Assembly (NCBI GenBank): GCA_016187945.1
Contig: JACPIT010000002.1
Span: 62,001-126,000 of the forward strand
Length of the DNA: 64,000 bases
DNA from: Opitutia bacterium
Lineage (GTDB): Bacteria > Verrucomicrobiota > Verrucomicrobiia > Opitutales > Opitutaceae
Direction: 5' to 3'
The notes beneath the pieces are model-generated. The model was not told the origin of the DNA. It searched no databases and worked only from the letters and a program-made list of their open reading frames with translations. Positions within the stretch are counted from its first letter, which is position 1; each line of letters begins with the position of its first letter. The position numbers and the translations under genes are program-made. Below, one piece after another: positions 12,757 through 13,850 of the stretch.

Positions 12757-12907
12757 CGAGTGCGGCGAACCGCCGCAGCGGTCTGTGGCCGACCGGTCAG
12801 ACGCGAGTGCGGCGACGAGAGTCCTTGTCGCCGCCAGGGACGGCGGCGACCACCTTGCCGGTGCGCGGCGCACGCGGTCGTTTTCGGCGGTCATAGACCG
12901 CCGCTAC
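12757..12907. repeat. REP-like repeat region, family H (CGGCGGTC)
   Basis: The right arm read on the minus strand is GTAG plus CGGCGGTCTATGACCGCCG, a perfect hairpin. A diverged left arm (GCGGCGAACCGCCGC, then CGGTCTGTGGCCGACCG) lies about 100 bases before. It occupies the gap between the AraC start and the methyltransferase stop. Confidence 0.75.
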
Positions 12908-12911
12908 AGGG

Positions 12912-13850
12912 TCAGCATTTCCGCGCGAGCCAGAAACGGCATTCGTCGGAAAAATCCTTCACCGCCGTCGACTCGACGGCGATGCGGCGGCGCATCTCGT
13001 CCCACTCGTGCGTCCAGCCGGTGGCGGCGAGGTCTTCGAGGATCTCGGTGCGATCCGGCAGATGCATGAACACGCGGTAATTGTCGTCGTCGACGAAGTA
13101 GCGGTCGCCGAACTCGACGAGCACGGGATCCTGTTTGCCCTGCGCCCAGAGCTCCGCGTGGCGCGCCCAGTGGCGGCGCTCGGCCGGTTCGTCGTCGCGA
13201 TCGTGCGTCGTGAAGAGCAGCGGCGCGCCGGGCGCGGCGAGCGCGTGCAGCCCGCGCAGCGCCGCGCGGCGATTCTCGCGACCGGGGATTTGCATCAGCC
13301 CGTTGAAGAGAAACAGCACGCCGGCGAACAGCGCCGGCGCGACGGAGCGACGGGCGGTCGAGTAACCTGTTAGGTTACTCTTCGCTTGGCGCCTCGCGCT
13401 ATTTCCACTCTGCGGGGGTGTGGCCCGGTAACCTATTAGGTTACCGTTGCCGGTGGCTCGCTCGGAAGCGGGGACGGAAGTGTAACCTAATAGGTTACAC
13501 TTGTCCGGGAGCTGCGTGGCGTCGGCGTGGAGGAGGCGGATGCGGCGGGTGAGCTTTTTCTCGCGGGCGAAGTGGCGGGCCTGGTCGAGGAGTTCTTCGG
13601 CGAAGTCGAAGGCGGTGATCTTGGTGTAGCCGAGTTCGGCGAGCGCGAGCGTCACGCGGCCGGTGCCGCAGCCGGCTTCGAGGAGCGGGGCGCGCGGGTC
13701 GGGGAAATGTTGCTCGATGAGTTTCTGCTCGGAGGCCCAGAGGCCGAGGCGCTCCGCGGCGCGTGCGTAGTGCACGACGGATTCGAGCGCGTTGAAGTCG
13801 GCGCGCACGGTGGCGCCGGTGATTTTGCGAGCGGAGTCGGAAGGGGGCAT
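12912..13850 (-). CDS. class I SAM-dependent methyltransferase with in-frame repeat insertion
   Basis: A 312-residue protein with motif I LLEAGCGTGRV (residues about 55-65), acidic ITAFDFAEE, and LLHADATQLPD, followed after an insert by FAGVLFLFNGLMQIPG. It is a Rossmann-fold SAM methyltransferase; substrate unknown. Between ATQLPD and FAGVLFL lies about 60 residues of low-complexity sequence in which CNLLGYT, GNLIGYR and SNLTGYS recur. These are translations of three copies of a 17-bp palindrome. Removing the segment would leave a normal-length enzyme of about 250 residues. Whether the insert is tolerated as a surface loop is unknown. Confidence 0.85.
   Translation of the reverse strand: MPPSDSARKITGATVRADFNALESVVHYARAAERLGLWASEQKLIEQHFPDPRAPLLEAGCGTGRVTLALAELGYTKITAFDFAEELLDQARHFAREKKLTRRIRLLHADATQLPDKCNLLGYTSVPASERATGNGNLIGYRATPPQSGNSARRQAKSNLTGYSTARRSVAPALFAGVLFLFNGLMQIPGRENRRAALRGLHALAAPGAPLLFTTHDRDDEPAERRHWARHAELWAQGKQDPVLVEFGDRYFVDDDNYRVFMHLPDRTEILEDLAATGWTHEWDEMRRRIAVESTAVKDFSDECRFWLARKC
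13362..13498. repeat. three 17-bp palindromes GTAACCTAATAGGTTAC inside the methyltransferase
   Basis: Copies at 13362-13378 (GTAACCTGTTAGGTTAC), 13428-13444 (GTAACCTATTAGGTTAC) and 13482-13498 (GTAACCTAATAGGTTAC). Starts are 66 and 54 bases apart, both multiples of three, so all stay in the same reading phase. The AT-rich palindrome core stands out from the surrounding GC-rich sequence. Confidence 0.95.

Follow-up and report, generated by a model that had tools for sequence, protein, structure and literature searches.

In REP/RAYT systems a gene is flanked by palindromic repeats, pairs of these repeats are dispersed, each type of protein has its own class of repeat, and changes within the palindromes are compensatory (PMC2817692). 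Rickettsia palindromic elements (RPE), for their part, are palindromic DNA carried in frame within many unrelated protein genes (PMC10969869). Here we compare with these systems a methyltransferase gene from an Opitutia bacterium, found in a stretch of 64,000 nucleotides (hereafter the window), in which three short palindromes share one reading frame. We consider that these palindromes are probably the cognate DNA sites of a small Cro-like HTH protein encoded elsewhere in the genome, whose binding we infer.

Palindromes in a methyltransferase gene and across the genome

The window carries three 17-bp palindromes, namely, GTAACCTGTTAGGTTAC (13362-13378), GTAACCTATTAGGTTAC (13428-13444) and GTAACCTAATAGGTTAC (13482-13498), spaced by 66 and 54 bp as the initial annotation had reported, where 100 dinucleotide shuffles give a chance expectation of 0 matches. 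They translate as CNLLGYT, GNLIGYR and SNLTGYS within the gene of a class I SAM methyltransferase (Methyltransf_25, E=3e-12), and the segment of roughly 60 residues that had been described in this enzyme corresponds to a loop of 60 codons (Table 1). With their outer arms the palindromes extend to 21, 21 and 25 bp, and the outer bases differ among the three yet remain complementary. The common phase of the palindromes, which had been taken to be informative, is real, and all 14 genic copies of the core GTAACCTAWTAGGTTAC checked among the ORFs of the same genome also use its one open frame. However, only one of the three reading frames of this core is free of stops, and since the other two contain them the shared phase is no evidence by itself. 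The 54- and 66-bp spacings are also seen outside genes, and therefore coding is not their cause.

Table 1. Features of the methyltransferase locus in the window.
Feature	Position	Strand	Remark
SAM-dependent methyltransferase gene, 312 aa	12912..13850	-	palindrome carrier
Methyltransferase loop, 180 nt (60 codons)	13329..13508	-	between ADATQL and FAGVLF
Palindrome 1 with extended arms, GAGTAACCTGTTAGGTTACTC	13360..13380	.	outer base A, as in the Lys-type code
Palindrome 2 with extended arms, CGGTAACCTATTAGGTTACCG	13426..13446	.	
Palindrome 3 with extended arms, AAGTGTAACCTAATAGGTTACACTT	13478..13502	.	outer base T, as in the code of the resident HTH protein
Box M of the 54-bp pair, TCCGAGCGAGCC	13455..13466	-	15 and 10 nt from its two palindromes
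Box M of the 66-bp pair, CGCAGAGTGGAA	13403..13414	-	placed by eye, from the box M motif

The core GTAACCTNNNAGGTTAC has 32 exact copies in the window genome, and its reversed control has none. A pattern with loosened arms, GTNNNCTAWTAGNNNAC, matches this genome 46 times, and 45 of the matches are perfect palindromes even though the NNN positions were left free; their versions are GTAACC, GTCACC and GTAGTC. On contig C9 of the window genome (G000), to which all counts per 1.36 Mb refer, 24 perfect palindromes are centred on TAWTA, against 0 in a Markov control. The outer arms of the dispersed copies vary from copy to copy while complementarity is kept. The copies are found between genes and inside genes, there always in the only open frame, and many of them lie deep in unrelated coding genes. 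Palindrome pairs also occur in records named Opitutus, Candidatus Didemnitutus, IMCC26134 and other Opitutaceae or Opitutia.

At several places a dispersed palindrome overlaps a stop codon or lies just behind it (L025, L026 and L030, near position 2016-2170), and the TAA within GTAACC can provide the stop codon, for instance that of the HTH gene itself. Other palindromes were noted in passing. First, GGCGATANNNTATCGCC is repeated 13 times in the 1.36 Mb of C9 (loci L154-L221, e.g. C9:21045 and 42268). Second, two ACTCCGTAATACGGAGT palindromes stand 789 bp apart (C9:318999 and 319788), where no HTH match is listed; the same type brackets an HTH gene in G002. Third, GC-rich REP-like palindromes of a separate dispersed family, GGCGGTC or GCCGGTC NNN GACCGGC/GACCGCC, occur at window positions 12886, 13867 and 13951. 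REP-like repeats GCCGGTCNNNGACCGGC (GCCGGTC) number 57 in 1.36 Mb, and the GC-rich palindromes are probably the repeats of the RAYT genes.

The palindromes are usually paired at distances of about 45, 54 or 66 bp and thus on the same face of the helix, forming doublets of about 62-86 bp. Over 77 distinct pairs from many genomes, the spacings fall at 44-48, 52-57 and 64-69 bp, and rarely at 37 or 77 bp, with a period close to one helical turn (R = 0.66 at 10.5 bp and 0.69 at 11 bp; simulated maximum, 0.43). Between the paired palindromes lies a conserved 12-bp box with the consensus YCMGAGNGAAAR, termed box M, whose distance in most pairs is about 14-15 nt to one palindrome and 10-12 or 23 nt to the other. 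The log-likelihood of this motif is 147, compared with 24-43 in shuffled spacers.

The methyltransferase loop itself differs in length among genera. In outgroup genera (G054, G066, G072 and G081) it has 18 nt and no palindrome; in many genera it has 30 nt, that is, one palindrome, with arms GTCACC, GTCATC, GTCACG, GTCACT, GTCAAC, GTAACC or GTAGTT; and in most members of the window genus it reaches 111-180 nt, with traces of one to three palindromes. The long loop of the window genome arose by the addition of further palindromes at 54 and 66 bp. In 28 orthologous loops, two-sided changes were found in 10 of 10 pairs. The covariation score was 0.451, compared with 0.149 after shuffling and at most 0.142 after sliding; rows entered the alignment when they were palindromic at least in part, and the percentage paired is inflated by this choice. 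The earlier suggestion that the DNA sequence itself is under selection is thus strongly supported, as orthologues in other genera keep the palindrome at the same codon position with both arms changing together. The same residues without palindromes, which would have refuted this suggestion, did not turn up: where orthologues have C-H-x-L/I-x-D, its codons almost always form a palindrome or a decayed one.

A small HTH protein family and its probable sites

On contig C9 of the window genome, at 39.6 kb (C9:39607-39957), an ORF of ~118 aa with a C-terminal HTH sits between two palindrome pairs. The family to which it belongs, of about 120 aa, occurs in 73 of 150 Opitutaceae genomes, and in 33 of 49 genera, with 1-8 copies each; outside the family a phylum-wide search gave weak matches only, and no member was found in phages, plasmids or viral contigs. 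None of the Pfam and NCBIfam models scored above cut-off for this protein (weak matches were to YdaS, HTH_31 and HigA), and a PDB sequence search returned only weak homeobox and Cro matches. The AlphaFold (AF2) model (pLDDT 83.7) consists of helices throughout; its residues 44-114 are similar to lambda-repressor-like domains, with scores that are weak and do not prove kinship (best Z 7.9, lambda CI 6.6, best Foldseek E 0.42).

In most cases measured, the HTH ORF starts 0-3 nt past the upstream palindrome, and it ends at, or shortly before, the downstream one. Divergent paralogues have a palindrome of their own, identical on both sides of the gene, e.g. TTTGCCGTATTACGGCAAA, ATGTTCGTAATACGAACAT or TGTAACGTAATACGTTACA; as exceptions, some HTH genes have a palindrome on one side only, or none. 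With one site immediately before the start of its gene and a second at the end, the HTH protein probably controls its own expression. At L068, L069, L081 and L089 the start codons, 0-3 nt after the palindrome, leave no space for an ordinary ribosome-binding site outside it, and translation may start in a leaderless or site-controlled manner. The HTH gene is syntenic in six species, and no conserved neighbour of the HTH genes was found except the family itself and synteny shared within the genus.

Protein and site covary. For 55 HTH genes, distances between recognition helices correlate with distances between palindromes (Mantel r = 0.66), also when the rest of the protein is controlled for (partial r = 0.62). 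Within helices of the QR type, this relationship can be read residue by residue. First, Lys is paired with A or G as the outer base (7/7), Arg with an outer pyrimidine (32/32, T in 31), and Pro with TT in place of TG (3/3). Second, His at the next variable helix position goes with GTC in 17 of 19 cases, and other residues with GTA in 19 of 23. The Lys/Arg rule was then checked on the dispersed sites: at their half-sites the base outside GTAACC or GTCACC is a pyrimidine in 120 of 128 cases in Arg genomes, with a purine in 8, as against a pyrimidine in 40 of 136 in Lys genomes, with a purine in 96. Fisher tests of the recognition code (K/R/P, and H vs Q/N) gave p=6.5e-8, 8.7e-5 and 5.8e-6, and the comparison of the dispersed sites of Arg and Lys genomes gave p=2e-29 (five genomes); in all these protein-site counts and covariation tests ancestry is shared and incompletely corrected, and the p-values are optimistic.

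Genomes with a GTAACC-type HTH have 15-51 sites and those without it 0-8. GTAGTC sites abound in G012 and also occur in G000, two genomes that have a GTAGTC-type HTH; G001 has none of them. G012 also has 8 GTAACC sites, for which no matching HTH was found in a genome that is 86% complete. A perfect methyltransferase palindrome is kept without a detectable HTH in G005, G046, G050 and G056; in these genomes either the HTH disappeared not long ago or escaped detection, or there is a different binder. The palindrome of the loop is closer to the HTH palindrome of its own genome than to those of other genomes (permutation p=2e-4), the two being exactly or nearly the same in G010, G021, G060, G065 and G076. 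Since the loop palindrome is conserved and matches the resident HTH type, the site is old: it was not inserted anew in every species but has been rewritten.

In the mechanism that we propose, an HTH dimer would read one palindrome of 17-21 bp, with the recognition helix contacting the outer bases via its Arg/Lys/Pro position, and the third and fourth arm bases via its His or Gln/Asn position. Two dimers would sit on one helix face, 4, 5 or 6 turns apart, flanking the conserved 12-bp box. The doublets are dispersed in and between genes, and have multiplied beside older sites. A protein-binding site was one of two explanations offered in the initial annotation, and the cognate HTH family together with the recognition code supports it.

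Mobile palindromes, fixed operators and other explanations

The second explanation, a mobile palindrome, is supported only in part. Genomes of the genus have between 0 and 51 copies, and the loop lengthened in steps; on the other hand, the comparison of G000 with G001, whose intergenic regions are too diverged for target duplications, showed neither a target duplication nor a clean empty site, and the HTH gene stays in place. Roughly half of the comparable loci are common to these two genomes, and others are absent. At one common locus the palindrome type is swapped, with a GTAGTC pair (L029, position 3079) and a GTAACC pair (L134, position 10694) at the same gene position, and at L142 a decayed GTCATC type in one genome stands against GTAACC in the other. 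Copy number and loop growth suggest that the doublet probably spreads as a unit. To judge from our analysis, a stable gene with a changing population of sites looks like REPIN/RAYT behaviour (PMC2817692), but no nuclease is linked here.

An ordinary regulon, in which the palindromes would be fixed transcription-factor operators for the control of host genes, without spreading themselves, might also account for sites that persist at orthologous places while their bases change with the protein, and for the synteny of the HTH gene. We regard this as possible, if rather unlikely, given the many sites deep within unrelated coding genes, the strong differences in site sets among close species (0-51 copies, several unshared loci), the doublets added within the methyltransferase loop, and the several HTH paralogues in a genome, every one of which has a palindrome type to itself.

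It is improbable that the palindromes are REPIN-like and moved by an unlinked Y1 (RAYT/IS200-type) transposase, with the HTH protein as an accompanying regulator only. Y1_Tnp proteins do occur in 12 of 13 genomes of the genus, REP-like repeats are also present in the window genome, and the architecture is like that of REP/RAYT (PMC2817692). Nevertheless, G004, G005 and G006 combine 8-14 Y1 matches with 0-1 GTNACC sites, none of the listed Y1 genes of the window genome is close by position to these palindromes, most REPs have a GT(A/G)G head and an asymmetric, GC-rich stem that these palindromes lack, and the palindromes covary with the recognition helix of the HTH protein. RAYT was rejected as the mover, as Y1 numbers are uncorrelated with palindrome numbers.

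An RNA hairpin acting in the transcript, as a terminator or in processing or attenuation, is very improbable. Its stem would be suited by the perfect arms, the 3-nt loop and the covariation, and several sites do lie at gene ends, but on the coding strand the arms mismatch as A-C in 5 cases and as G-T in 3, so that G-U is not favoured; the helical spacing of the pairs and the HTH code are features of double-stranded DNA, and an Rfam search gave nothing at gathering score. Finally, although orthologues show similar residues again, it is scarcely credible that selection acts on the peptide C-N/H-L-I-G/S-Y/D as a protein loop with the palindrome as by-product, since unrelated genes and DNA outside genes contain the same palindromes, their arms change in concert, and outgroup enzymes are missing the loop.

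Returning to cognate sites of the HTH protein, we tentatively put forward that they may form part of a new two-component repeat class, in which paired palindromes bracket the gene of a nuclease-free Cro-like protein, populate its genome, spread there, and co-evolve with its recognition helix. No description of such a palindrome/HTH pair was found in the literature searched, including searches for the core sequence and for Opitutaceae palindromes. The palindrome/HTH pairing described here would connect palindromes scattered over bacterial genomes with a DNA-binding protein whose recognition code can be read, and would do so without a transposase of the kind by which REP repeats are explained. 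It would also provide a natural series of protein/site pairs, in which genome-wide sites track single residue changes and the co-evolution of binding protein and site is thereby directly testable, and a candidate explanation for palindromes within coding genes.

Comparison with known systems

The REP, BIME and REPIN sequences with their RAYT share with the present system a palindrome-flanked gene, dispersed copies that are often paired, a repeat class for each protein, and compensatory changes. However, the partner here is an HTH protein without Y1/HUH nuclease and with no PF01797 match; the palindromes are perfect, AT-centred and symmetric, with many in coding DNA; and the pairs are helically phased around a central box. 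In place of the GT(A/G)G head and GC-rich palindrome of REPs, the types found here are GTAACC, GTCACC and CGTAWTACG-type, and only the GTAGTC type begins with GTAG. A MITE would be marked by target-site duplication and a clean empty site, and the comparison of G000 with G001 gave no clean empty site.

As with RPE, a palindromic element lies in frame in several unrelated genes. In contrast, RPE are about 150 bp long, whereas the unit here is 17-25 bp and comes in pairs, with a predicted cognate HTH protein and continued covariation; to our knowledge, no partner protein is known for RPE. Lambda-type Cro/CI (XRE) repressors differ in that the present sites form a dispersed multi-site family and bracket the gene at both ends, there is no phage context, and the HTH protein passes no Pfam or NCBIfam cut-off. 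The predicted HTH may be lambda-repressor-like, with the weak model scores given above. What the two have in common is an odd-length 17-bp two-fold site and the protein's own gene adjoining the site.
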